The notes under the pieces were generated by a model that was given only the letters and a program-made list of their open reading frames with translations, was not told where the DNA came from and ran no database searches. Positions 7,513 through 21,395 of a stretch of DNA of 64,000 nt are shown here, in pieces. Every line of letters starts with the position of its first letter. The stretch's first letter is position 1. The DNA is from Alistipes sp. (lineage in GTDB: Bacteria; Bacteroidota; Bacteroidia; Bacteroidales; Rikenellaceae), in contig JAGBAX010000004.1 of assembly GCA_017938765.1 (NCBI GenBank), forward strand, positions 1 through 64,000, read 5' to 3'. The translations under genes were made by a program, and so were the position numbers.

Positions 7513-8739
7513 ATGGCAAAAACAGAGAGACTCTTAAAGCGTATGGCAGAGCTTGAGGAGCAGACCGGTGTTAAGCGCACCATTTTTGCTGCCTGCCCTA
7601 ACTCTTCTGCTGTTATTCGTGCATCTATCCGCTCTGCAAAGCGCAACAATGCACCAATCTACTTTGCAGCTACACTCAACCAGATTGACACTGACGGTGG
7701 CTACACTGGTATGACACCAGCTGACTTTGTTAAGGTATGCCGCATGGAGTGTGAGGCTATCAACTTCACTGGCGACTGCATTATCGCCGTTGATCACGGT
7801 GGTCCTTGGCTCAAGGATAAGCAGAATACTGAGCGTTGGGAGACTGAGCGTGCTATGAACGCTGTAAAGGCATCTTTTGAGGCTGCTATCGCTGCTGGTT
7901 TTGACCTTATCCACGTAGACCCAACAGTTGACATTAACGTTCCAAAGGGCGAGGTTATTGATATTCACCTTGTTGTTCGTCGTACCGTTGAGCTTATCAA
8001 GCACTGCGAGGATTATCGTCGCGCAAACAACTATCCAGAGATTTCATACGAGGTTGGTACTGAGGAGGTTCACGGCGGTCTTGCTGATGATACTACATTT
8101 GACACATTCCTCGTTGAGCTTAAAGAGGGTCTTGCTGCAGTTGGTCTTTCTGATGTATGGCCTTGCTTTATCGTTGGTAAGGTTGGTACAGACCTTCACA
8201 CAACACTCTTTGACGGAGAGGTTGCAAAGAAGCTCACAGCAAAGGTTCGCCCACTTGGTAGCTACATCAAGGGCCACTACACTGACGGCGTAAGCAACCC
8301 ACAGGACTACCCTCTCTGCGGTATGGGTGGTGCAAACGTTGGTCCAGAGTTTACTATTAGCGAGTACGAGGCTCTTGAGGAGCTTGAGGCTAAGGAGGTT
8401 GAGTACTACAACGCTGGTCGCGTAGCTATGCTCTCTCACATCACTGAGGTGCTCACTCGCCTTGTTTACGAGTCAAACCGCTGGAAGAAGTGGTTGCTTG
8501 AGTCTGAGAAGGGCGTTGACTTCTACGAGATTGACCCAGAGCGTCGCGCTTGGCTTGTAAAGACCGGCTGCCGCTACATCTGGCAGAAGCCTGAGGCTCT
8601 TGTTGCTCGTAACTCACTCTACGAGAACCTTAAGCGTGTAGGTATGGACCCAGAGAATATCGTTCTTGACCGCATCGAGCACGATATGGATAAGTACTTC
8701 TACGCATTCAACATCGTAGACCTTAACAAGATGCTCTAA
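7513..8739 (+). CDS. GatZ/KbaZ-like (tagatose-bisphosphate aldolase non-catalytic subunit) family protein
   Basis: The 408-residue protein has the pattern of the GatZ/KbaZ family: ACPNSSAVIRAS near residue 29, AVDHGGPW near residue 96, LIHVDPTVD near residue 134, and EVGTEEVHGG near residue 180. In enterobacteria such proteins are non-catalytic partners that stabilise the GatY/KbaY class II aldolase. No gat or aga transport genes lie nearby. A GatY-like aldolase is encoded 5 kb away on the other strand and could be the partner, but that is inference. It is monocistronic, with its own promoter and a strong downstream terminator. Confidence 0.8.
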   Translation: MAKTERLLKRMAELEEQTGVKRTIFAACPNSSAVIRASIRSAKRNNAPIYFAATLNQIDTDGGYTGMTPADFVKVCRMECEAINFTGDCIIAVDHGGPWLKDKQNTERWETERAMNAVKASFEAAIAAGFDLIHVDPTVDINVPKGEVIDIHLVVRRTVELIKHCEDYRRANNYPEISYEVGTEEVHGGLADDTTFDTFLVELKEGLAAVGLSDVWPCFIVGKVGTDLHTTLFDGEVAKKLTAKVRPLGSYIKGHYTDGVSNPQDYPLCGMGGANVGPEFTISEYEALEELEAKEVEYYNAGRVAMLSHITEVLTRLVYESNRWKKWLLESEKGVDFYEIDPERRAWLVKTGCRYIWQKPEALVARNSLYENLKRVGMDPENIVLDRIEHDMDKYFYAFNIVDLNKML

Positions 8740-8753
8740 TAGCTTCACGATAC

Positions 8754-8787
8754 AAAAAAAGTGGTGCAGCTTTGCACCACTTTTTTT
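8754..8787. terminator. Bidirectional terminator
   Basis: An A7 run, GTGGTGCA, loop GCTT, TGCACCAC and a T7 run form a strong hairpin between the convergent GatZ-like and glycosyltransferase genes. Confidence 0.88.
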
Positions 8788-8789
8788 AT

Positions 8790-9806
8790 CTACTCTTTCA
8801 GCCGCACTACCCAGCACTTACGCCATAGCCAGAAGCGATACTGTGTGCAGTAGCCCACGACCTTGCCACTCTGCATCGCCAACTCGCGCTCATGTCGTGA
8901 CGGCAAACTATCTATGCGCGTAATTGTCACGGGCGTATTGTTCCATACAGCATCAAACTCTACAGCACCACCTACAATACGGGGCACTGCCTTTACAAAG
9001 TAGAACAGATGTCTAAACTTTTGCGAGGTAGAGGCTCTTCGTGGAAAGAAAAAGTTGCGAAGCGGGTTGATATACTTTGACATAGAGCGTTGAGAGTATA
9101 GCCTACCACCAATCTTACGCTCAAAGAAGTCTGGAAACTTACGATTAAGCACCTCTATCAGTTCGCCCCTATACTTTCGTCCCACAAAACGTGATGAGCC
9201 AGCTCTTACGCGATAGAAAAACTCTACTGTCGGCAGAGTAACAACCTTGCCACCATCTTTAAGAATAGAAATCCATAGTGCCCAATCCTCGCAGTAGTTG
9301 TGCATCGTAGTATCAAAGCCCCCAACACGCAGAAAATCCTCACGGCGCATAAGCGAGCTAATTGTAAAGACATTACGCTGCGCGAGCCTCTTCTGAGTAT
9401 AGGTTTTCAGCCTCCACGACCCCGTGCGACCATCAAAGAACTCTCCTCGGCAAGTAACGACCTTAACCTCACGGTCTCGCTCCATCTCTGCCACCGCCTT
9501 GGATATGTACTCACTGTTTATAAGGTCGTCTGAATCCACAAAGAGGATATACTCTCCACTGCTATGCTCTACGCCATAGTTTCGCGCAATACCTTGACCG
9601 CCATTTACCTTTGTCAGCGCCTTGACGCGACAATCTTTCGCCTCGTAGCTCTTTGCAATCTCAAATGTACTATCCTTTGAGCCATCATCAACAATTACCA
9701 ACTCTAAATTTGGATAGTCCGAACCAAGCACAGAGTCCACAGACTGCGCCAAATATTGCTCAACATTATACGCCGGCATTATTACCGACACCCTTCCAAG
9801 ACTCAT
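8790..9806 (-). CDS. Family 2 glycosyltransferase
   Basis: The 338-residue protein has a GT-A fold N-terminal half: VSVIMPAYNVEQYL at the start, VIVDDGSKDST near residue 38, NGGQGIARNYG near residue 68 and the metal-binding FVDSDD near residue 90. It should transfer a sugar from a nucleotide-sugar donor to an envelope polysaccharide or glycolipid. The acceptor is unknown. The C-terminal 100 residues are basic and lack a long membrane helix. It lies 33 bases downstream of the shortened tubulin-like gene on the same strand, so it may be the last gene of that operon or simply read through from it. No separate promoter was recognised in the 33-base gap. Confidence 0.85.
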   Translation of the reverse strand: MSLGRVSVIMPAYNVEQYLAQSVDSVLGSDYPNLELVIVDDGSKDSTFEIAKSYEAKDCRVKALTKVNGGQGIARNYGVEHSSGEYILFVDSDDLINSEYISKAVAEMERDREVKVVTCRGEFFDGRTGSWRLKTYTQKRLAQRNVFTISSLMRREDFLRVGGFDTTMHNYCEDWALWISILKDGGKVVTLPTVEFFYRVRAGSSRFVGRKYRGELIEVLNRKFPDFFERKIGGRLYSQRSMSKYINPLRNFFFPRRASTSQKFRHLFYFVKAVPRIVGGAVEFDAVWNNTPVTITRIDSLPSRHERELAMQSGKVVGYCTQYRFWLWRKCWVVRLKE

Positions 9807-9839
9807 TAATCAAAAACCCACCTATTTATTACTCATTAC

Positions 9840-12041
9840 TTAGCATTCTGGCTTCAACGAGAAGTTCTGCGCCTTCATCTGCTCATAGATACCCTTGTCA
9901 AAGTGCGGATTCCAAGCCCCCTCTTGAAGAGTTTTCTCATACTCCTCGACTACAGCCTCATCCAGCGCTTCAATGCAGTATGGTATAATAGCACCATCTA
10001 CACGCAAAATAGTTATTTGCTGACGTGACGACTCGGCATTAGTGAGCACAAACTCTTTGAAACACCTACCAAAATACCCTGCCTCATCACGTTCAAGGCG
10101 TGTCTGCTCGCGAACCTGCTCGTTTCCTTTAGGAGAATATATTGAGTAGAAAATTCCGCTGTACATCTTCCCACTTGGAGTTTGATCTGTCCGACTACAA
10201 ATCAGTCCATGATTATTAATTCTAAGCAAGAGGCTTGACTTGACATCAATATACTCTTTGACTCTATCATAATCCTCATTGCTAAGCGCTTCAATAACAT
10301 CTGTAATATTCTGCTCACGATACTTTACAGCCTGTGGCAGAGTTGCTACATACTGCTCAATTACAGAGCGCAACTGCTTCTCAATATCAAGGTCAAGCAG
10401 TGATACTGGAAGCGAATTGACCAGTTCTGCAATAGAAAAATCATACTTCAGAGTCATATTCATCCGCTCATCTACAGACAAGTCGTACTCAAACATTGAA
10501 TTTTCCGCATTCTGCAACCTCTCAATAGACTGGGTATAATCTGCACAAAGAGACTGGAGCTGCCAATCAAGTGCATCAATCTTACAAGAGAGCTCGCCAG
10601 CCTTCTTAATGAGGCAGATAAAGATATCACGAGCAATCTCACGACGCTTAATCTCGTAGTTAATCTGACGAACACTCCTGGCGCGGCGTGAAATTTCATC
10701 CAGATACTCCTGCTTCACAGTACGTGATTGGAACAATCTTGGCTTACTACAATACTCTTTATACTCCAAAATAACTCTCTCAAGAACAGAACTCCTATTT
10801 TCAAGAGCAATATTGAACTGACCTATCTCATCTACCTTCTCACAACGATACTTATCACACAGACGAATCAGAGAATCAAGGAAAATATGGCTATTACCAA
10901 CACCATTCTCTTGTGAAAGCAACTGCTTAACTCTGTCAACGAGCGACTCTTTTTTCTCCTCCATCATCTTCTTTATGCAAGCATCAGATGGCATATCGGA
11001 CATATCGCCAATATAGTTAGCAACATCACTCTTTATTTCATCAATAGTATTAGTAATACATAACTGAAGAATCCTCAGTCGCTCAATAGTCATAGGCTCA
11101 ACGATACTATCAATCAGCATACTGTACTGATCACCATCCTCACGAACACTAGCCTCTTCTGTCCACTTCTGTGCGAGTTGCTCAGCCTCAGCACCCTCCT
11201 GACGGATAGAACGGATAAGCTTCATAGCAGCCATGTAGCCATAGATAGTAGCCAGCTGCTCGCCCTTATATACAACCTTACAAGCACCAAGAGAGTGCAC
11301 CCAACCAATCTTATTATTGACATTGAATTCTCCATATTTCCAAGAGATGTTATCAAGCACTGTGCGTACCCTACCAGCCATCTCTCCGCCATTAGCGAAC
11401 AAACAGAGACCCAACACCTCACAAACCTCATTAATATTTGTAAGTATATGTCCTCTCTCCGTCTGATTATCAACAACAAAGAACTCATTGAACAAAGGAC
11501 AAGTAAGTTCTCGTTCTATGCCATTAATCTCAAACTTGACTGGATTATCATACGAAGCACTCATAGTGTAATCCAAGTCCAAAACCGCAGAATATGCGTT
11601 TGCAGCTACGCGTGGAGCATTATACTTCATTGCACGGAATACACCGTGCAAAACACCGTAACCCAGAATATTAGCGCGCACATTATATCCGTGCTTGATT
11701 ATATCCGCTACTGTGATAAGCGAACCTGCCCCATCTGCCAGTGATGAAACGATATGAAAATCTACAATATTATCCCCTAAGCCAATTATAGCAAGCACCT
11801 GCTGCCAACATCTATCAATGCGCTCCGCTATTGCTTGAGGCTCAAGTCCTTCCACAAAGTTATCCTCAACACTTGTAGCAAGAGTTTTATCCTCAAGAAT
11901 AGAAGAATCAGAATCTACTGCCAAAAATGCTATACAAGGCGGAACCATACCGACTCCGTAGACTTCTTCAAACTCTTTCTTTGTCTGGGCAATAGCACGG
12001 ATGCCTGTTGCTCCCAAGCCAATATAAATTGTAGGTCTCAT
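9840..12041 (-). CDS. Shortened tubulin-like paralogue, probable pseudo-GTPase
   Basis: The 733-residue protein is clearly paralogous to the 984-residue tubulin-like protein at 15634, sharing the start MRPTIYIGLG and long near-identical stretches such as IRSIRQEGAEA. Three differences stand out. The signature loop, GGTGCGS in the long copy, reads DGAGSL near residue 103. The block before it that holds the GASQVRTTGR segment of the long copy is missing. The protein also stops at SLKPEC, where the long copy continues for about 190 residues. GTP binding is therefore unlikely, yet the frame is intact, so it may be a regulatory or capping subunit. ATG 12041 is chosen by alignment with the paralogue; a GTG at 12074 is in frame. 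It follows the protease gene by 54 bases that contain a hairpin. Confidence 0.8.
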   Translation of the reverse strand: MRPTIYIGLGATGIRAIAQTKKEFEEVYGVGMVPPCIAFLAVDSDSSILEDKTLATSVEDNFVEGLEPQAIAERIDRCWQQVLAIIGLGDNIVDFHIVSSLADGAGSLITVADIIKHGYNVRANILGYGVLHGVFRAMKYNAPRVAANAYSAVLDLDYTMSASYDNPVKFEINGIERELTCPLFNEFFVVDNQTERGHILTNINEVCEVLGLCLFANGGEMAGRVRTVLDNISWKYGEFNVNNKIGWVHSLGACKVVYKGEQLATIYGYMAAMKLIRSIRQEGAEAEQLAQKWTEEASVREDGDQYSMLIDSIVEPMTIERLRILQLCITNTIDEIKSDVANYIGDMSDMPSDACIKKMMEEKKESLVDRVKQLLSQENGVGNSHIFLDSLIRLCDKYRCEKVDEIGQFNIALENRSSVLERVILEYKEYCSKPRLFQSRTVKQEYLDEISRRARSVRQINYEIKRREIARDIFICLIKKAGELSCKIDALDWQLQSLCADYTQSIERLQNAENSMFEYDLSVDERMNMTLKYDFSIAELVNSLPVSLLDLDIEKQLRSVIEQYVATLPQAVKYREQNITDVIEALSNEDYDRVKEYIDVKSSLLLRINNHGLICSRTDQTPSGKMYSGIFYSIYSPKGNEQVREQTRLERDEAGYFGRCFKEFVLTNAESSRQQITILRVDGAIIPYCIEALDEAVVEEYEKTLQEGAWNPHFDKGIYEQMKAQNFSLKPEC

Positions 12042-12056
12042 ATTCGCAAATGAACA

Positions 12057-12080
12057 AAGCGGGGTGGCAAGCACCCCGCA
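12057..12080 (-). terminator. Intra-operon hairpin, possible partial terminator
   Basis: A perfect 8-bp GC-rich stem, GCGGGGTG with CACCCCGC around a 5-base loop, lies between the protease stop and the short tubulin start. On the minus strand it is followed by TTTGTTC rather than a clean T-run. It could act as an attenuator or RNA stabiliser that sets different levels of the two proteins. Confidence 0.5.
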
Positions 12081-12095
12081 GTTAAAGATTATAAA

Positions 12096-15000
12096 TTAGC
12101 TTCTTAAAATCTCGCAATCATTACACTCAAGGGTTGCAATAGTTATATACGTCAGTATATACTTATCAACAGAGTCTAATGCTGTCAGTGCTCTACTAAA
12201 CTTGTCTGAAAATCCGGATCCATTCTCACAAGCACGAGGAGCAAGGATATACTCTGACCTCTGTAGTGAAGGTCTTGCCACTCTGCTTAGATGGATAAAG
12301 AAGTCTGCCAAGCGTGCGCACTCACTCGCAAGCATTCTATCCACTGGTTTAACCCATGAAGTTGTATTTCCGCCTATTGTGTGCTCTGTAATATCAAAGT
12401 TTGCAATTACTGGGTGAGTAAGCAAAATCTTTGCCACCTTATCAAACAAAGAGCGCTTGTATTTACCTATTGACTCCTCGGTGATTACATAGTTATCAAT
12501 ATCAGCACAGAAATCTATCTCGCACTCTGGATCGTTCTTAAGATACTTCTCAAAGAGCTCGTCAAGAAGAGCCGCATCCAACAACGAGGTATTTGGCAAA
12601 CTCTTCTCAAGTGTGAACTCATCTACTGAGAGTTTTGCCTCCTCATACCAAGTGCGCAGATTGTTAATCAGCGACAAATAGTTACCATACCACTTATGGA
12701 GTTTTGTCTGCACTCTATCCATCTCGCGCAACAGGTACCACGCAGCAAAAGTATTATATCTAAACTTAGCAACAATAGTATCTATCTGCTTAATGCGAGC
12801 TTTGTTTTTATTGATATCACTGAGCAATTGGTCATTAATCTCTCTACAATTTTGCCACTCTTCGTGAGTTTTCCATGCAAGCAGACACAACATCGGAACT
12901 AGAACTATAAGAGTCCAGAAGATAGTCAGATGCTGAATTTCTGCAACTGGAACATGCTTAGCTGTCTGCATTCCTACATATATCAAATCTGCAACTGCAT
13001 AGATACCAAATGTTGCGGCAGTAGTTGTTATATAAGCAGCATAAGAGACAATCTTGCGACGAGACAGACCGCCCAAAATCAAAACAGCTACAATAGCTAC
13101 AATAAGAGGCCAGATTGGCAGTAGGACCTTACAAGCCCAGAAGCCTCCAAATGCAGCAGCTACAATACCCGCAAAGGTATACATAACTCCGACATTGTAG
13201 TCATGCAGAGCCTCCTTGTTATCCTCAATCTTGCGCGCAAGACCCTTATTTGTAATCTGCAAATCACTCTTCTCCTTCTCCAGAACCACCTTAGCCTCCT
13301 GGATATAGGTATCGCGCTGATTTGGCATAGATGCGAAGGTCTTTGTCAAGCGCTCAAAGTACTCCAGTAGGCCTGTTCGCTTGAGCTTAAGTTGCTGAAG
13401 CTCAAACTTTGCAGCATCCAGAAGGGCACAACATACGCAGTACTTGATACGAAGATCCTGATCGTCAATGGTAATAGTTGGGATATTTACCATCTTAACG
13501 TCCTTCATAGACTCAATCTCTGTAATGATACAAGCATTGTTGCACAATCTCTTATCATCAACATATAGATATGGGATATAACAGTAACCATTATCTCCCC
13601 AATCCTCACCCCACGAGTTACGCACAACAAAGCAGTTAAGTTTGTCGCTGTAACCAACAATTACCATCGCATGTGTAGAGTGACGTGGCTTCTGTGAGTC
13701 ATCAAGTGAAAGAGTCTCTGTTATCTCGGTCTCTGTTGGCATTGCAACATATCCTCCGATAGATGCATCCGTGAATGTAGGACACAACACAAACGAAGCC
13801 TCAACAGGATATCCCTCAGCCAACGCATTCTTGATATCCACAGCAGTCCTATTTACATTCAGAGCCTTGATAAGTCGTCGGGTCTTAGCATCTGCATAGG
13901 CCTGATCGCTTGGCTGGCTGGTATAGTCCGCCTCATTGTATGGACACAACTCCTCAGTAGCAATACCATACTCCATCAACGATGCAATAGCAGGCTTTAC
14001 TCGTGAGCCTATATCTGTTGTAGTATCAACATCGCCTGTAGTATCCATCTTGCGGGCATTGTAGTACAAGAAGGCCTCACTAAGATCTACACTCTTTGCA
14101 GTATTGAGCTTTACGGCATACTCAAAAATAGAGGTCAGCGCATGAGCTAAGCAAGAGCCTTGACTACCCTGATTCTTAATATGGGTAAAGTTACTTCTCA
14201 AATCAATACTCTCTGGTAAAATGATGTTCTTTGGAGGCTCATATGTCTCCTCTAAAGGCTCCTCAACCAGAGTTGGCATCAGACGGAAATCGTGCTCACC
14301 AAAGTGGAACACTCCATCCTCAATATAGCACTTCTCAGCCTTGCGATTTTCAGTCAGCTGAACACTCACCTCTTCGGCCTGAGCAGTGAGTCGGCGAATC
14401 TCTGCCTCTACATTAATAACCTTAGCATTTAACTGCTTGAGCTCTGGAATAGGATTTACTGGAGACTGCTCACCCTCGCCAAAGTACTTACCATAGTCAT
14501 TTGTAATGAAGTAGTCAATACACTCTGAGAATAGGTCGTACACGCAGATAGCATCGGGGTCATAGACAGACTGAGAGAGCAGTGCGCAATCGGTCTTTGA
14601 GAGCATAACAGCCAAAATGGCTGTACGCACTGTAATATCCTTCTCCTTTTCAAATAACTCTGTGCAAGCAGTAATAATAGCGTCAGCCTGTTTAGCGAAT
14701 CGCTGCTGCATCTCCACTGTATCAAGCTCTTCTTTATTCTTAAAGAAATCGGAAAGTGCCTGATCCTTGTACTTCAAGATATCGTGACAAACGGCAATTG
14801 CCTTATTAACATCAACATCTGTATTATTTACAGACGCCGCATCCATATCGTGGAGTAACATACGCTGCATCAGATAGCTGACAAGCATAAACTTGTCTAC
14901 CTGCAGCGTTGAGATACCAAAGCCGACAACATCCTTATACTCCATCGTCGGTGTAAAGAGTGTTGTGTAGTTTGAGTGACAAGCCAGCGCAAACTGAGAG

Positions 15001-15626
15001 ATTATCTCTGGTAATGCATTAATATCTAATCTAAGAGTAGTACCAGTAGTGGTAGTATTCTGGAACATAATCAGATGGTCAGAAGTTGCAGCATTGTAAG
15101 ATGCTCTCAACTTTATGAAACTAGCCACCTGCTTCTTAGATGTAGACTCGGCTTTAAATCCTGGCTCAATAATACTTGCCATGTCATCACCATAACCAAC
15201 ACAGTTGATTCGTGCAGGCTTATTAGAGGCCTTAATACCACTATAAAGGACCTTCAACACATCAAACGCCTCTGGCTTATAGAGAGGGAAGTGGAGCATA
15301 ATTGTAAGCACCTGATCCTGTGTTCTGGCATCAATCATTGTGTCAAACACCTCACCCCACGCAGCAGCAAACTCGTCTGTTGATACAGACTTCAACACAT
15401 TTAACTGATGATCTATGTAGTGGTCAAACTGATCCAACAACTTATCGTCTGTTGTCGGCTTAACATCCAGACGAGAGAGTGTCAAATTATCGCTACCATA
15501 GTCAACGAGTATATAGTTTATATCAGATGCGGTCGTGCTACCGCAATATTTAAGTGTAGCACGACCAACGCCTGATATCACATCGGTAAACTCCTTACCG
15601 ATAAAGATATGCGCGAATTTTGACAT
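12096..15626 (-). CDS. Membrane-anchored papain-family (C1) protease in a tubulin-like operon
   Basis: The 1176-residue protein has no signal peptide. Residues 1-380 are an uncharacterised domain; 395-430 look like a short coiled coil. A papain-type domain (about 470-705) follows, with NQGSQGSCLAHA (Cys492 as nucleophile), SEAFLYYNAR, THAMVIVGY (His652) and RNSWGEDWGDNGY (Asn670), so the full triad is present. A second coiled region (about 735-805) leads to roughly four membrane helices (813-918), followed by a 250-residue helical tail. The protease domain would be cytoplasmic if the N-terminus is inside. The N-terminal segments AHIFIGKEFTD, INYILVDYG and INCVGYGDD align in order with strands of the neighbouring tubulin-like proteins, suggesting a degenerate tubulin fold. 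It starts 7 bases after the long tubulin-like gene. Substrate unknown. Confidence 0.8.
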   Translation of the reverse strand: MSKFAHIFIGKEFTDVISGVGRATLKYCGSTTASDINYILVDYGSDNLTLSRLDVKPTTDDKLLDQFDHYIDHQLNVLKSVSTDEFAAAWGEVFDTMIDARTQDQVLTIMLHFPLYKPEAFDVLKVLYSGIKASNKPARINCVGYGDDMASIIEPGFKAESTSKKQVASFIKLRASYNAATSDHLIMFQNTTTTGTTLRLDINALPEIISQFALACHSNYTTLFTPTMEYKDVVGFGISTLQVDKFMLVSYLMQRMLLHDMDAASVNNTDVDVNKAIAVCHDILKYKDQALSDFFKNKEELDTVEMQQRFAKQADAIITACTELFEKEKDITVRTAILAVMLSKTDCALLSQSVYDPDAICVYDLFSECIDYFITNDYGKYFGEGEQSPVNPIPELKQLNAKVINVEAEIRRLTAQAEEVSVQLTENRKAEKCYIEDGVFHFGEHDFRLMPTLVEEPLEETYEPPKNIILPESIDLRSNFTHIKNQGSQGSCLAHALTSIFEYAVKLNTAKSVDLSEAFLYYNARKMDTTGDVDTTTDIGSRVKPAIASLMEYGIATEELCPYNEADYTSQPSDQAYADAKTRRLIKALNVNRTAVDIKNALAEGYPVEASFVLCPTFTDASIGGYVAMPTETEITETLSLDDSQKPRHSTHAMVIVGYSDKLNCFVVRNSWGEDWGDNGYCYIPYLYVDDKRLCNNACIITEIESMKDVKMVNIPTITIDDQDLRIKYCVCCALLDAAKFELQQLKLKRTGLLEYFERLTKTFASMPNQRDTYIQEAKVVLEKEKSDLQITNKGLARKIEDNKEALHDYNVGVMYTFAGIVAAAFGGFWACKVLLPIWPLIVAIVAVLILGGLSRRKIVSYAAYITTTAATFGIYAVADLIYVGMQTAKHVPVAEIQHLTIFWTLIVLVPMLCLLAWKTHEEWQNCREINDQLLSDINKNKARIKQIDTIVAKFRYNTFAAWYLLREMDRVQTKLHKWYGNYLSLINNLRTWYEEAKLSVDEFTLEKSLPNTSLLDAALLDELFEKYLKNDPECEIDFCADIDNYVITEESIGKYKRSLFDKVAKILLTHPVIANFDITEHTIGGNTTSWVKPVDRMLASECARLADFFIHLSRVARPSLQRSEYILAPRACENGSGFSDKFSRALTALDSVDKYILTYITIATLECNDCEILRS

Positions 15627-15633
15627 AACAATA

Positions 15634-18588
15634 TTACTTCAAATTCTTCAATGTGTTAAGCAGATTCTTTTGAATATAGTTCCACTCATCGTTAATCTGG
15701 TCAAGCTCCTGCTTACGCTGAGACTTGTATGTACTACTGCTCTTGTCAGCACACATAACACGGTCAATATAGTCATCAAAACCGCCTGCGATAACTGTCT
15801 GAATAAGAGCCTCGTAGTAAGCCTCACCGCGACTCTGGATGTCAGATACAAGCTTGTCGTGGAGCAGTGTACGAATCTGAGGGAAGTCTACACCCTTGAA
15901 GTTGTTAAACGCTCTCTGGCGGTTATCAGTGCTGATACCACCGATTGGATACCATTTCTGACCATTCTCGCCATTTCTATCCTCTCGCCAAACTTGGTAA
16001 ACCTTCTTATCGCAACGGATATACTTAGGGTGTGTAACAACCTCCTTACCAGAGATCTTAGTGCTTGCCTTTGACAGATCATCCTTCTCCATAGCATAAG
16101 CCTTCTCTGTTACATCAACCCAACCGAAGAGGTGACCGCATACCCAGTAGAACATAGCCTCGTTGAGAATCTCTGGCTTCAACTTAAAGTCAGTCAGCTT
16201 CATATTATCGTAAATCTGCTGATCAAAATGAGGGTTAAATACGGTTGAACCAGCCTGACTTGCCTCAAGAATAAGTGGCTCGTACTCATCCTTAATAGTC
16301 CAAGGGTCAAATACGTCAATACAGTATGGAAGAACTGCACAGTCCGCACGGAAGATAATCATCTGCTGACGGAGCATTGCAAGGTCAGTAACCAAGAACT
16401 CCTTCTTCAGGTTGTCGCTCTTTGCAAACTCATCATCAAGCTCAAGGCGAGTCTTTGGACGAGACTCCTCATTGCCCTCACCAGCATTCTCTGGATCGTA
16501 TACAGAGAGGAAGTAGTTCTGAACCATCATCTCGCTTGGCATCTTCTTCTTAGTGCGCTCAATCAGACCTCGGTCGTCAATTCTAAGCAGACGGCTTGAC
16601 TTAACGTTAATCTGGAACTTGAGCTCCTCGTATTCCTCCTTGCTAAGCTCCTCAATAACATCGGTAATCTTACGCTCACGGTATGCAATAACCTGTGGCA
16701 GAGTTGATACATACTGCTCAATTGCAGGGCGCAACTGCTTCTCAATATCAAGGTCAAGCAGTGACGCTGGGAGTGAAATCAGCAGAGAAGCAAGGCTTAC
16801 ATCATCCTTCAGAGTCATATTCAGACGCTCATCCGCAGAGAGGTCGTGCTCAAATACGAGTGATGAAGCATTAGTATTCTGCAACTCTGTAAGGGCGAGA
16901 GAGTACTCTGTGTTAAGGGTCTTCAGAAGCTCATCAAGAGTATCAATCTTACGAGAGAGCTCTCCAGCCTCCTTTACGAGGTAGATAAAGATGTCACGTG
17001 CAATCTCACGACGCTTAATCTCGTAGTTAATCTTGCGAATATCCTTGGCAATCTTTGCCATCTTATCAAGATACTCTTGTCTTGTTGCTGCCGCCTGGAA
17101 CAATCTTGCCTTACCACAATACTCCTCGTACTCCTTTGTAGCCTTGGCAAGAAGAGTATTCTTACCCTCAAGAGTAGTATTGAACTGCTCAGCCTCATTA
17201 ATCATCTCAAGACGATACTTCTCACACAGACGAATCAGAGACTCAAGGAATGTGCGGCTATTACCAACACCATTTGGAGCAGAGAGGAGTGATTTAATCT
17301 TAGCAATCAGGGACTTCTTCTTCTCCGCCATCATCTCCTTTACGCGAGCATCAGCAGGAATGTCTGCCATATTATTCATATAGCTTGTAATCAAGCTCTT
17401 ATTCTCAGCCTCTGTACTCTTAGCATCTACCATAGCAGGCTTCAGACCCTCAATAGTCTTAGGCTCAACAATGCTATCAATCAGCATATTGTACTGATCG
17501 CCATCCTCACGAACTCTAGCCTCTTCTGTCCACTTCTGTGCGAGCTGCTGAGCCTCTGCGCCCTCCTGACGGATAGAACGGATAAGCTCCATAGCAGCCT
17601 TGTAGCCATAAATAGTAGCCAGCTGCTCACCCTTGTAGACAATCTTACAAGCACCAAGAGACTGTACCCAACCAACCTTTGGAGAGATATTAAACTCACC
17701 ATTAGTCCAAGACTTGTTGTTAAGCACTGAACGCACCTTGCTACCCATATCGTCACCGCTTGCGAATAGGCTAATACCCAATACCTCACAAACCTGCTTG
17801 ATATCAGTAAGCACATGACCGTGCTCTGTATTGTTGTCAATTACAAAGAACTCATCATAGATAGGAGAGATAAGCTGCTGCTCGTTACCGTTGATTGTAC
17901 AAGTGATAGGATTGTCAGTAGAGGCGCTCATAAGGTAATCCAAATCCATAACTGCTGAGTATGCATTTGCAACTACGCGTGGAGTCTTATTTCTACTTGG
18001 GTCCATAGTACAGAATACACCGTGCAGAACGCCATAACCGATAATATGAGCCTGAGTTGGCCATGTGTTGCGAATCATCTCAGCAACATTGATAAATGAA
18101 CCACAACCAGTACCACCAGCCAGTGACATTACAATGTGGATATCTACTGCAGCGGTCTTATCAACCTTCTGGGTAACCTTTGCAACAGAGTTAACCTGCT
18201 GCCAAGCATACTTAATACGCTGACGAATCTTATCAAGTACCATCTCAGTATAGAAACGACCTGTTGTACGCACCTGAGAAGCGCCCTCAGCAATCTGCTT
18301 ACCAATGAATCGGCCATTGCCCTTAAATACCCACTTATAATCACTCTGCTTTACTCCCTCAACATAGAACTGCTGTGGGTTAGCAAGGATATTAAGGCTC
18401 AAGAAGTCTGGTGCAATATTAGTTGCAAGGCTCCTATCTGATGGAGCTGCAAGATCAAAGTCTACGGCAATAAAGGCTACCTGTGGTGGAATCTTACCAA
18501 CACCGTATGCATCTTCATACATCTTCTTTGTCTGAGCAATTGCTCGGATACCAGTTCCGCCCAATCCAATGTAAATCGTAGGTCTCAT
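15634..18588 (-). CDS. Large tubulin/FtsZ-like protein (Tubulin_2 type)
   Basis: The 984-residue protein starts with IYIGLGGTGIRAI (T1-like nucleotide-binding loop, residues 5-17). It has a strand VAFIAVDFD (37-45), a GASQVRTTGR segment (102-111), and the tubulin/FtsZ signature as SLAGGTGCGSF (155-165). Tubulin/FtsZ-superfamily proteins bind GTP and polymerise. At this length most of the protein (about 350-984) is a family-specific, largely helical extension. It has no signal peptide or clear membrane span and should be cytoplasmic. It lies 50 bases after the lipoprotein gene and 7 bases before the protease gene. The VWA neighbour matches the context reported for FtsZ-like families proposed to act in membrane remodelling. 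The cellular role here is unknown. Confidence 0.85.
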   Translation of the reverse strand: MRPTIYIGLGGTGIRAIAQTKKMYEDAYGVGKIPPQVAFIAVDFDLAAPSDRSLATNIAPDFLSLNILANPQQFYVEGVKQSDYKWVFKGNGRFIGKQIAEGASQVRTTGRFYTEMVLDKIRQRIKYAWQQVNSVAKVTQKVDKTAAVDIHIVMSLAGGTGCGSFINVAEMIRNTWPTQAHIIGYGVLHGVFCTMDPSRNKTPRVVANAYSAVMDLDYLMSASTDNPITCTINGNEQQLISPIYDEFFVIDNNTEHGHVLTDIKQVCEVLGISLFASGDDMGSKVRSVLNNKSWTNGEFNISPKVGWVQSLGACKIVYKGEQLATIYGYKAAMELIRSIRQEGAEAQQLAQKWTEEARVREDGDQYNMLIDSIVEPKTIEGLKPAMVDAKSTEAENKSLITSYMNNMADIPADARVKEMMAEKKKSLIAKIKSLLSAPNGVGNSRTFLESLIRLCEKYRLEMINEAEQFNTTLEGKNTLLAKATKEYEEYCGKARLFQAAATRQEYLDKMAKIAKDIRKINYEIKRREIARDIFIYLVKEAGELSRKIDTLDELLKTLNTEYSLALTELQNTNASSLVFEHDLSADERLNMTLKDDVSLASLLISLPASLLDLDIEKQLRPAIEQYVSTLPQVIAYRERKITDVIEELSKEEYEELKFQINVKSSRLLRIDDRGLIERTKKKMPSEMMVQNYFLSVYDPENAGEGNEESRPKTRLELDDEFAKSDNLKKEFLVTDLAMLRQQMIIFRADCAVLPYCIDVFDPWTIKDEYEPLILEASQAGSTVFNPHFDQQIYDNMKLTDFKLKPEILNEAMFYWVCGHLFGWVDVTEKAYAMEKDDLSKASTKISGKEVVTHPKYIRCDKKVYQVWREDRNGENGQKWYPIGGISTDNRQRAFNNFKGVDFPQIRTLLHDKLVSDIQSRGEAYYEALIQTVIAGGFDDYIDRVMCADKSSSTYKSQRKQELDQINDEWNYIQKNLLNTLKNLK

Positions 18589-18638
18589 AATGTTTTAAGT
18601 TTTTAATTTTATGTTAGTATTTAATCGTTACCTATATA

Positions 18639-19526
18639 TTAATTAGTCTCTACTTTTACACGAGCCCCCTCATCGGTAATAAGTGTAAACGGCTCGCGTC
18701 TCATAGGCTCATCTGGTGTGTATCCCACACTACCAGATATGCGATGATATCCACCCTTCTTGCTCTTAATAGTTACTGTAGAGGTCCACACTTCGTTTAC
18801 AATAACAAGGTGCTTTGTCATAAACAGCGCACTGAAGAATCCCTGCCTATACTTCTTTGCATTCTCAGGATTTGTCAGAATAACAGCAGTTTTGCCAGAA
18901 GTTCTTATCATGTACTCCTCACCATCTGGATAGGTAATCTCCATTCTGCTAAACTTCACATAAGGACGACAGATTGGTCTTAGGAAGCATAGCCAGAAGA
19001 TATAAAGCCCTCCAAGAACAATAGCAAACCACATCATTCCCTTATCGGCAGGATTCATAACCTCGTTTTTATCTACATAGAAATTACCGAGTTTATTATC
19101 AACGCGATCAAGGCTATTCATATCAACAGCTCTCATAATAAGAGTATGCTCTCCCTCTTTTGCACCATCAAGGAACTGTATACCCACTTTTACTACGCTA
19201 TCTTCAACCGTAATAGCGAGTCTATTATTTGGGCAAGCCTCTCCATTTTTGTATACTGCAATATGCTCGGCAGGAGCTACATGACCATACTCATCCTCCT
19301 CATACATCTCAAAAGTAAATGTTTGAGACTTAAGCACAGGGTCACTCATAGCATCCTCATTAAACTCAAACTCAAGCACGCGCTCCATTATCACTGGCTC
19401 ATAGTGCCAATACCAAGAGTCTGAATAGACCTTAGCCTCTCCCCAGAAATTGCGACCATCACCTTCAGCACAAGAGACTGCGAGAAGTGCAAATAGTACT
19501 ACAACAACATTAAATATCTTTTTCAT
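18639..19526 (-). CDS. Lipoprotein with single membrane span, tubulin-like operon
   Basis: The 295-residue protein has an N-terminal signal ending in the lipobox LAVSC (Cys19). A beta-rich region of about 140 residues resembles an Ig-like or Omp-associated module (LEFEFNEDAM, EGEHTLIMRAVD). A clear membrane helix (about 163-182, GMMWFAIVLGGLYIFWLC) is followed by a basic segment and about 105 residues that would be on the opposite side of the membrane. If both signals are used, the protein links the periplasm to the cytoplasm. Its ATG overlaps the VWA gene stop by one base (TAATG), so the two are translationally coupled. I do not recognise the family. By position it is a candidate adaptor between the VWA protein outside and the tubulin-like protein inside. 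Confidence 0.7.
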   Translation of the reverse strand: MKKIFNVVVVLFALLAVSCAEGDGRNFWGEAKVYSDSWYWHYEPVIMERVLEFEFNEDAMSDPVLKSQTFTFEMYEEDEYGHVAPAEHIAVYKNGEACPNNRLAITVEDSVVKVGIQFLDGAKEGEHTLIMRAVDMNSLDRVDNKLGNFYVDKNEVMNPADKGMMWFAIVLGGLYIFWLCFLRPICRPYVKFSRMEITYPDGEEYMIRTSGKTAVILTNPENAKKYRQGFFSALFMTKHLVIVNEVWTSTVTIKSKKGGYHRISGSVGYTPDEPMRREPFTLITDEGARVKVETN

Positions 19527-20506
19527 TATTCACGCATTTTAATAGTTAATACTCGCTCTCTCACATTCTTCACAGTCACATTAACCTCTGATGGAAGAAG
19601 TACCACTTTTATGTGGTGCAATGCCTCTATCTCTTTACCATTGAGCACCTCAAGCTGCAACTTTACTGGTGTACTCTCTGGAAGGCTATTCTTCAACTCC
19701 TCAAGATTAAACTGAGGGGTTACCTCAATCATTTTATTAACTATTTCAACCTCCTCATCAACAGAAATAGGAGAGTCTCCAACAGTTCTTACCGCGACCT
19801 TAACGCCCTCTGGCAGATTTGACGAGCCATTAAATGAGATGATAAGACTCTTATCATTTCTGATGTTAAAAATACCCTTCACAGGAACCTGATCAGATAC
19901 TGTATATGGCTCTCCTGGCTTGATTACTACAACATTATTTAGATCTGTTGGCAAATCAATATCAGCGGCTTCTGTTATCTGGACATAGACAAGATATGAG
20001 TTTACCGACTCTTCGTCCCACTCTTTTACAGCTTTTTTCAGTTCTTGCGCTCCACCTCTATTAGGCATATTGTGCTCGCCATCGGTTAGCAAGGTGATAA
20101 AATTGCGACGATCGCTCTTCTGGAAATTCTCCTTCGCATACTTCAACGGATCAACAATGTTGGTGTAGGTCATATCAGTATACTTACTCTTTCCCTGCTT
20201 AATCCACTCAATAATCTTAGTCTTATTTTCGGGAGATGAATTTTCAATCTTAAAATACTCCAACACCTTATCTTGGAATGGAATTACCACCACCTCAGTA
20301 GAGGTACGACTAATACTATTAATATCATTGATAAGATGCTTCTCAACTTCATCATACACATCTGGAGTCGGCTTTGAGCCCTTACCCTGCATAGAGAGAG
20401 TTACATCCCAGATATAAATCTTACGCTCCAAAGACTCTGTCCCCTGCGCCATAACATTAGTGACTGCAAACAGCACCATCACTAAAAACAACAATTTTTT
20501 CTTCAT
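19526..20506 (-). CDS. Secreted von Willebrand factor A domain protein
   Basis: The 326-residue protein has a signal peptide ending MAQ at residues 19-21. A VWA domain follows directly with a metal-ion-dependent adhesion site: DVTLS (Asp34, Thr36, Ser38; Thr replaces the usual first Ser), TDMTYTNI near residues 110-117 for the conserved Thr, and LLTDGEHN (Asp142). The C-terminal 120 residues are beta-rich. VWA domains bind protein partners through a chelated divalent metal. It should lie in the periplasm or outer leaflet. It is the first gene of the tubulin-like operon, behind a well-formed promoter, and is coupled to the lipoprotein gene. Confidence 0.82.
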   Translation of the reverse strand: MKKKLLFLVMVLFAVTNVMAQGTESLERKIYIWDVTLSMQGKGSKPTPDVYDEVEKHLINDINSISRTSTEVVVIPFQDKVLEYFKIENSSPENKTKIIEWIKQGKSKYTDMTYTNIVDPLKYAKENFQKSDRRNFITLLTDGEHNMPNRGGAQELKKAVKEWDEESVNSYLVYVQITEAADIDLPTDLNNVVVIKPGEPYTVSDQVPVKGIFNIRNDKSLIISFNGSSNLPEGVKVAVRTVGDSPISVDEEVEIVNKMIEVTPQFNLEELKNSLPESTPVKLQLEVLNGKEIEALHHIKVVLLPSEVNVTVKNVRERVLTIKMRE

Positions 20507-20546
20507 TTTGTAACTATTAAGTAGACTAAATTGAATATATAATGTA

Positions 20547-20578
20547 CAAATTTATAAACTTTTTTCGTAAAAATCAAA
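20547..20578 (-). promoter_or_regulatory. Promoter of the VWA/tubulin-like/protease operon
   Basis: TAAATTTG at 20554-20547 and TTTG at 20578-20575 are separated by exactly 20 bases, a near-ideal Bacteroidetes promoter. The leader to ATG 20506 is about 35 bases. Confidence 0.72.
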
Positions 20579-20656
20579 ATTTAAAAGGACTAAATATACA
20601 TATTTTTCGCTCCTCCTTGAGTGTTAGTATAGAATAGAGGCATAGTACATTGTTAT

Positions 20657-20687
20657 TTTGTGGTTTGACAAATTATTACTACCTTTG
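20657..20687 (+). promoter_or_regulatory. Promoter for the 20709 gene and DPP4
   Basis: TTTG at 20657-20660 and TACCTTTG at 20680-20687 are 19 bases apart. The start codon at 20709 is 21 bases further on. Confidence 0.68.
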
Positions 20688-20708
20688 TAGAGACGAAAAA
20701 GTAAGATT

Positions 20709-21395
20709 ATGGCAACACAACCACTAAGAGAGAAGATTCTGGACACTATCATTGAGAAGTCTATGCTCAAGCAGAGGGTGTTTGACAATACCTTTGCTGT
20801 GTTCAACCTTTTGAAAGACACACTCTTTGAGATGGCATCTGAGATGGAGGATGCACTGGAGGGTAAGGTAGACCGCCGCGTAAGGCTTGAGTACCGCGAC
20901 CGAGGCAAGCACGAGGCACAGTTGCAGATTGCATCAGATTTGCTGATTTTCAAGATGCACACCGACATCTTCCAGTTTGACTCTAACCATATCATCTGGC
21001 AGAACAGCTATGTGCAGCAGGACAAGGCAAACAGCTACTGCGGTATGATTGACATCTACGACTTTCTCTCTGACTCATTCAAGGACAAGCGTTCTGCTGA
21101 CGAGGGTTACCTTATCGGGCGAATATTTATCAACCGCGAGCGTATGTTCTTTGTAGAGGGTAAGCGTCAGAGCAGTATGCGCGCTATGAACTTCGGCAAG
21201 GACGAGATTGACCGCGAGAGGCTCATTGCCATCCTTGAGTCGGCAATACATTACGCCGTAAACTTTGACCTGCTCACTCCACCTTATGAGCAGTGCAAGA
21301 GGGTTGTGGTTGAGCAATTTAACAACAAGTTTGACAGTTCAACCTTTGTCACAGGAAAGCGACTAAATTACGAATTTAATGTTGATGATATTTAG
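20709..21395 (+). CDS. Conserved hypothetical protein
   Basis: This is a 228-residue soluble protein without signal peptide or membrane span. It begins PLREKILDTIIEKSMLKQRV, with a helical first 50 residues, then a mixed alpha/beta part including FKMHTDIFQFDSNH, YCGMIDIYDFLSDSF and GYLIGRIFINRERMFFVEGKR. I do not recognise a catalytic motif; the protein resembles conserved Bacteroidetes hypotheticals of similar length. The DPP4 start lies 17 bases inside its 3' end, so the two are probably cotranscribed and translationally coupled. Confidence 0.65.
   Translation: MATQPLREKILDTIIEKSMLKQRVFDNTFAVFNLLKDTLFEMASEMEDALEGKVDRRVRLEYRDRGKHEAQLQIASDLLIFKMHTDIFQFDSNHIIWQNSYVQQDKANSYCGMIDIYDFLSDSFKDKRSADEGYLIGRIFINRERMFFVEGKRQSSMRAMNFGKDEIDRERLIAILESAIHYAVNFDLLTPPYEQCKRVVVEQFNNKFDSSTFVTGKRLNYEFNVDDI

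Follow-up and report, generated by a model that had tools for sequence, protein, structure and literature searches.

What joins a tubulin-like GTPase to a VWA protein, a lipoprotein and a papain-type protease? The question is raised by five adjacent genes in a 64,000-nucleotide stretch of Alistipes sp. (contig JAGBAX010000004.1), hereafter the window, whose positions are used throughout. The host genome is 2.1 Mb and 87% complete. Comparison with related loci reveals a recurring block of genes for a VWA protein, a lipoprotein, a Tubulin_2 protein and a papain protein (PAP), with a conserved predicted papain active site. The cassette is a new variant of the FtsZl1-vWA systems, one that we did not find described in the open-licence literature; it is a variant rather than a new kind of system because FtsZl1-vWA operons are already known. 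In the likeliest reading, an envelope signal would cross the membrane and tubulin assembly would gate a cytoplasmic protease.

Five minus-strand open reading frames (ORFs) span 9840-20506, with the limits and strand given in the initial annotation of the window. Their lengths in operon order are 326, 295, 984, 1176 and 733 residues, the last counted from ATG (744 from the first in-frame GTG). The tight spacing reported earlier (an overlap of 1 nucleotide, then gaps of 50, 7 and 54) is exact. The profile search proposed as a check matches a VWA domain, Tubulin_2, Peptidase_C1 and a second Tubulin_2 in Pfam; the lipoprotein has no Pfam match. The features are listed below.

9793-20670, no strand: cassette; close relatives have the same flanks without this block
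20547-20578, minus: promoter-like element TTTG-N20-TAAATTTG (sequence)
19526-20506, minus: VWA protein, 326 aa (ORF; PF00092, 3.1e-9)
18639-19526, minus: lipoprotein, 295 aa (ORF; hydropathy; homologues in other loci)
15634-18588, minus: first tubulin, a Tubulin_2/FtsZl1 GTPase-like protein, 984 aa (PF13809, 2.2e-55)
18097-18117, minus: its T4 GTP-binding loop, GGTGCGS (alignment)
12096-15626, minus: PAP, 1176 aa (PF00112, Peptidase_C1, 1.1e-20)
14592-15626, minus: PAP N-domain, residues 1-345 (profile match to tubulin 240-325; secondary structure of the model)
13512-14219, minus: papain domain, residues 470-705 (catalytic residues; PDB match)
12861-13154, minus: PAP hydrophobic segments, residues ~825-922 (hydropathy; model)
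12129-12593, minus: PAP C-terminal domain, residues 1012-1166 (distant similarity to tubulin 650-753)
12059-12079, minus: terminator-like hairpin between the PAP and TUB2 genes (sequence scan)
9840-12041, minus: TUB2, a shortened second tubulin, 733 aa (PF13809, 1.2e-27)
11721-11735, minus: T4-loop remnant DGAGS in TUB2 (sequence)

Recurrence of the block and its gain or loss

Genomes were scanned with a seven-sequence tubulin alignment and one degenerate peptide pattern; recall is limited because a single such pattern was used. The scan returned 34 loci, 26 of them in Bacteroidota. PAP lies directly after the tubulin in 24 of these 26 (25 loci counting the window); of the two exceptions, L039 is cut off by the end of its contig, and the third protein of L041 carries no papain. 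The neighbourhood comparison called for in the initial annotation thus gives a recurring PAP-tubulin block. A VWA gene lies upstream in 22 of the 25 PAP loci (21 of the 24 other than the window), as a separate gene in 13 (the window and L042 among them) and as a fusion with the lipoprotein part in nine. L026, one of the three PAP loci without a confirmed VWA, is cut by its contig. The lipoprotein was unmatched by phmmer in L029, L042 and L043; at this place L029 has one 590-aa ORF with a membrane span, the L042 lipoprotein was recovered by tblastn, and L043 has a 312-aa ORF at the equivalent position. The conserved core comprises four genes, not five, because a second tubulin is present in only 6 of the 25 loci.

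Three of 150 GTDB-family genomes, the window's included, have the tubulin, and the same three have PAP; three further genomes match PAP over the papain domain only. The order (247 genomes) holds one tubulin besides that of the window, without papain, and the phylum (395 genomes) holds six more Tubulin_2 genes in other gene settings. The stretches fetched around these six, two of them short or contig-cut, contain no PAP match.

In two close relatives, G412 and G149, the flanks are 83-90% identical to those of the window over long aligned stretches, and the five genes are absent between them. The distance between window positions 9792 and 20671 is 88 bp in G412; that between 9794 and 20663 is 93 bp in G149. 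G395 also lacks the neighbouring glycosyltransferase in this stretch, and G398 (L065), aligned at a single flank, is uninformative on the empty site. Because the flanks meet without the five genes, these alignments show that the block arrived or disappeared as a whole in the lineage of the window. The co-occurrence, the conserved neighbourhoods and the absence of the whole block agree with the earlier proposal of one system.

The G+C content of the cassette is 0.427, and that of the window 0.468. The cassette ends, compared over about 150 and 220 bases, share no exact repeat, direct or inverted, of at least 9 bases, and integrase or transposase matches in Pfam are absent from all five genes. 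In mobile-element records, the tubulin is found in five plasmid records and one weak phage record; a relative of the tubulin protein was not found in IMG/VR.

The four core proteins

The VWA protein has a hydrophobic N-terminus, probably a secretion signal, and a DVTLS metal-site-like motif. The pattern WDVTxS is present in all 12 separate VWA rows and in the fused protein of L032, and is unmatched in the remaining fused rows. The lipoprotein has an AVSC lipobox-like site at residues 16-19 and, by hydropathy, a single membrane span at residues 163-186; its C-terminal domain is presumably cytoplasmic. Hydropathy is therefore consistent with the transmembrane link proposed at first, from a periplasmic VWA domain to a cytoplasmic domain, and the VWA-lipoprotein fusions elsewhere lend it further weight.

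The first tubulin scores 188.8 bits against the Tubulin_2 profile (cut-off, 27) and matches PF00091 at 2.2e-4, under the cut-off. Its approximate layout is a GTPase domain (residues ~1-340), a helical or coiled part (~380-600) and a C-terminal domain (~640-984). The tubulin signature GGTGCGS is intact, as first noticed: the T4 pattern GGTG[CAS]G and the T1 loop GGTG are each kept in 30 of 30 aligned first tubulins, five distant loci with a tubulin-like gene having been left out of the alignment. In the 41 matches of the tubulin profile to solved structures, the best stretches lie within profile positions 365-643, and none lies in the GTPase domain. Apart from the window's own second copy, the closest tubulin in the tree is that of L025, an Alistipes metagenome-assembled genome (Rikenellaceae).

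PF00112 is matched in all 25 PAP members, residues Q486, C492, H652 and N670 are unchanged in all 25 rows, and the best PDB match of the PAP profile is 3ois (5.6e-46). By mean pairwise identity, the papain domain (0.425) and the tubulin GTPase domain (0.42) are the best-conserved parts; PAP outside the papain domain is at 0.19-0.25. Distances among tubulins and among PAPs correlate (r 0.92, reached by 0 of 2000 permutations), as expected of any linked pair. An AlphaFold2 model of PAP built with 25 sequences has a mean pLDDT of 84.4 and a pTM of 0.62, with pLDDT below 50 across most of 836-899. In the window's PAP, no hydrophobic segment is seen near the N-terminus and residues 814-920 could hold two to four spans by hydropathy, which also gives different span numbers among homologues. 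Because the span number varies and the model is poor at 814-920, we only infer that the papain domain is cytoplasmic.

C1 papain domains related to that of the window were also seen in 274 viral contigs (L100-L179; IMG/VR, PAP profile); the 80 kept match within residues 429-734 only, with up to 38% identity. Plasmid records with a PAP match number 27, and the eight listed match within residues 394-709.

PAP as a possible tubulin-related partner

Two sub-profile matches relate PAP to the first tubulin, and they are collinear: tubulin 240-325 with PAP 178-250, and tubulin 650-753 with PAP 1094-1168. Both exceed 40 of 40 shuffles. In block tests, the two collinear blocks are reached by 0 of 100 column shuffles, and five off-register controls are not significant (13 to 95 of 100). 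Of the three N-domain blocks, one beats every shuffle and the two with the loops do not; the C-domain block also beats every shuffle.

In the model, the N-domain runs E3-9, H11-34, E36-43, then E107-114, H118-133, E138-145, H163-176, E185-188, H204-223, E233-242 and H245-263 (E, strand; H, helix), with two more strands and one helix at 47-97 and a mostly high pLDDT. This order is the one expected of the tubulin topology. The GTP loops are absent, and Tubulin_2 is not among the 25 listed of the 54 Pfam families that match the 25 PAP members. A further match of the N-domain is to a protein without a papain match, the third one of L016, at a score of 38.9 where shuffles reach at most 20.4; the papain domain was probably a later addition to an older partner. 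Because its ends are distantly collinear with tubulin and its modelled N-domain order is tubulin-like, PAP may be a pseudo-tubulin partner with a spliced-in protease, that is, a tubulin-related protein with a papain domain inserted and not an independent add-on.

A proposed mechanism and the evidence against it

We tentatively favour, at somewhat less than even confidence, a Bacteroidota variant of the FtsZl1-vWA systems in which a transmembrane sensor controls a tubulin/PAP assembly and its cytoplasmic protease. The secreted VWA domain and the lipoprotein would form one sensor, and its cytoplasmic end would contact the GTP-dependent assembly of tubulin and PAP. Within this assembly, the N-domain and C-tail of PAP would act as a degenerate tubulin, and PAP would anchor the whole to the inner membrane. 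An envelope signal would alter the assembly, papain domains would be gathered or freed, and cytoplasmic proteins would be cut. Second tubulins with an altered GTP loop could be caps or poisons that tune the assembly, and the outcome could be either self-killing on attack or envelope repair. A more specific form, in which a tubulin-gated protease consists of an alpha/beta-like pair of an active FtsZl1 tubulin and a degenerate partner that carries papain and anchor, a periplasmic VWA receptor and GTP-dead copies, evolved more than once, for tuning, is possible but doubtful.

Several results weigh against this mechanism. The VWA calls are weak in L042 (tblastn alone; none by Pfam) and L044 (under the Pfam cut-off), and a VWA was not found in L025 or L033 (L033 by Pfam). 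Comparison of the full tubulin and PAP profiles yields a single match, in the C-terminal part, and a weak one (16% probability, E 0.0016); the nucleotide-loop blocks match no better than chance, their scores being reached by 27 and 8 of 100 shuffles. Two off-register pairs were also compared: one is null, and the other, tubulin C-part with PAP N-part, scores 20.3, just short of the highest shuffle (20.4), with 23.2 on reversal. The third protein of L016 matches neither tubulin itself (5 of 50 shuffles reach the score) nor the PAP C-domain (26 of 50). The third protein of the Thermaceae loci was considered as a PAP homologue and is unsupported by profile comparisons; one C-terminal comparison (0 of 50 shuffles) was set aside because it covers only 18 columns and its off-register control is close (1 of 50). 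The flank test and the PADLOC-DB search described below belong with these points.

PAP could instead share no ancestry with tubulin: it would then be a protease of the membrane whose N-domain has another origin and whose gene just happens to lie in the operon. We lean away from this reading, though it is a possible one: the failure of the nucleotide-loop blocks, the weak full-profile match and the low sequence identity of the two matches (18% and 5%) all fit it, but it leaves unexplained two collinear stretches above all shuffles with non-significant controls, and the strand-helix order of the predicted model.

Second tubulins

TUB2 matches Tubulin_2 at 97.5 bits. Compared with the first tubulin, residues ~64-119 and the T4 loop are missing, DGAGS with a deletion standing in place of the latter, and the protein stops at ~808 of 984. 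It is sister to the window's first tubulin (support 100/100). Second tubulins are present in the window, L020, L027, L030, L042 and L043; T4 is altered in five of the six and intact in L043, compared with 0 of 30 altered among first tubulins. The L020 copy pairs with its own first tubulin (100/100), and the L042 pairing (82/92) is on a very long branch. The tree requires four label changes, gains or losses, and its starred branches force four; we read these as four duplications. The pseudo-tubulin first proposed as a fifth member thus has a Tubulin_2 match, but is an instance of a recurrent duplication rather than a constant component.

A hairpin at 12079-12059, overlooked in the initial annotation, has 8 pairs, 7 of them G-C, and a T-rich tail. 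It is the richest in G-C among 11 terminator-like sites of 8700-20800 (shuffle mean, 6.9 sites), which is only a hint that it acts as a terminator. One promoter had been thought to drive all the genes. The promoter-like element is present at 20578-20547 and agrees with what we take to be the Bacteroides promoter consensus, but its service to the fifth gene is doubtful because the hairpin precedes TUB2.

That TUB2 is a decaying pseudogene and not part of the system seems to us rather unlikely. The lost motifs, the missing C-terminus and the upstream hairpin are what decay would leave; against this, 733 codons are open, dN/dS between second and first tubulin is 0.36 (0.22 in L020), and such genes recur in several loci.

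Relation to known systems

The literature consulted was open-licence text, in part, of PMC2875224, PMC7159879, PMC9871819 and PMC12839542. Operons of FtsZl1 (Tubulin_2, PF13809) with vWA genes were described by Makarova and Koonin in 2010 (PMC2875224), and a Bacteroides caccae sequence appears in the Figure 1 legend. The link to these operons drawn in the initial annotation holds, with the same Tubulin_2 family and a vWA neighbour; the window has the profile match, both loops and the vWA neighbour, the last found in the 22 PAP loci given above. A long C-terminal extension of the Tubulin_2-type protein and membrane proteins are also shared, going by the available text of that paper. The words 'protease' and 'papain' are absent from its main text; its unnamed families A1-A2 and B1-B9 might include some cassette proteins. 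The kinase, P-loop GTPase and OmpA genes that it gives for these operons are absent, by Pfam, from the window's five genes.

Kaur et al. 2020 (PMC7159879) proposed GTPase-centric (GAP1-N2) conflict systems with tubulin and vWA. In the part of the paper available, these share with the cassette a coiled-coil tubulin, a membrane protein with an extracellular vWA domain and two tubulin genes (in their Firmicutes versions). They centre on TRAFAC GTPases and GAP1, neither of which is matched by any of the window's five genes in Pfam, and the paper describes their tubulin type from Firmicutes and Actinobacteria. With the Peptidase C1 family (3ois), PAP shares a papain domain with a complete active site; unlike in that family, the domain sits between a tubulin-order N-domain and coiled coils with membrane segments. 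Thermaceae loci L017 and L018 likewise have vWA beside Tubulin_2 and, at the position of PAP, a third protein, but papain is not annotated, brxL follows, and the third protein has no demonstrated homology.

In the open-licence literature, we found neither a papain protease in an FtsZl1-tubulin setting nor a paper giving FtsZl1 tubulins a tested role. New here are the invariant papain active site, the candidate pseudo-tubulin character of PAP and the recurrent second tubulins with an altered GTP loop.

Genomic context and alternative roles

The initial annotation had noted no clear defence effector. In accordance, none of the five proteins matches PADLOC-DB at E up to 1. The flank test took 124 of 164 flank proteins (nearest three per side; proteins of at least 1050 aa and one missed lipoprotein excluded), and the control 124 of 132 proteins (some of the long ones being dropped) drawn from 19 stretches chosen arbitrarily within the genus; the control covers the window's genus only, while the flanks span several genera. 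At 1e-10, 47 PADLOC model families are matched in the flanks and 7 in the controls. The 25 flank families listed have a single matching member apiece, and Cas3 models account for 17 of them. We do not claim a defence-island enrichment, because these counts do not give the number of distinct proteins and each listed family has one member.

The Meiothermus and Thermus plasmids carry cassettes of vWA, tubulin-like, hypothetical and brxL genes (L017, 1-14383; L018, 6404-14363), and upstream genes of the Meiothermus cassette encode DUF1156 and Swt1-HEPN proteins. A link of Tubulin_2 to BREX-type genes is possible from this gene order. In L015 (G095), a CRISPR-like repeat array lies just downstream of the system at 15822-17706, with ORFs of one repeated motif, as judged by eye. 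On an Azospirillum plasmid (L019, 9950-13594 and neighbours), a tubulin-like gene lies beside several caspase-family and OmpA-family genes. A family of membrane proteins of 325-408 aa (c4) lies downstream of the system in seven loci (L020, 16527; L023, 18982; L024, 21588; L027, 20151; L028, 17057; L030, 20299; L043, 11255); the two members scanned have no Pfam match above the cut-off. Small lipoprotein-like genes, in two weakly linked groups, are found in seven loci.

Two further roles may be set beside the sensor-controlled protease. In the first, a role in remodelling the membrane or maintaining the envelope, an FtsZl1 polymer would bend or brace the inner membrane, in line with the proposal of Makarova and Koonin, and papain would only mature or turn over a partner. 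The FtsZl1 context in the available text of Makarova and Koonin (PMC2875224), the hydrophobic segments and lipoprotein-like sequences of the system and the lack of a demonstrated defence enrichment in the flanks are compatible with such a role, but its rarity in the family and its empty sites are unlike a housekeeping function and the papain active site is kept throughout; we consider it unlikely. Also unlikely is an anti-phage or inter-bacterial conflict role of the kind proposed by Kaur et al. 2020 for GTPase-tubulin-vWA systems, with envelope attack leading to protease-mediated dormancy or death: patchy distribution and cassette behaviour, the Thermaceae relatives next to brxL (with Swt1-HEPN and DUF1156 in Meiothermus), the array in L015 and the pairing of vWA with tubulin in proposed conflict systems (PMC7159879, in part) point towards it, and the absence of a PADLOC match, the single-member, mostly Cas3 flank families and the lack of a recognised effector besides papain point away.

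Implications

A recurring FtsZl1 partner with a protease active site offers a testable output for these tubulins, and the repeated appearance of duplicates whose GTP loop is changed suggests that assembly is regulated. Should the protease indeed lie within a tubulin subunit, a cytoskeletal polymer would control proteolysis; to our knowledge, such a machine is known nowhere else.

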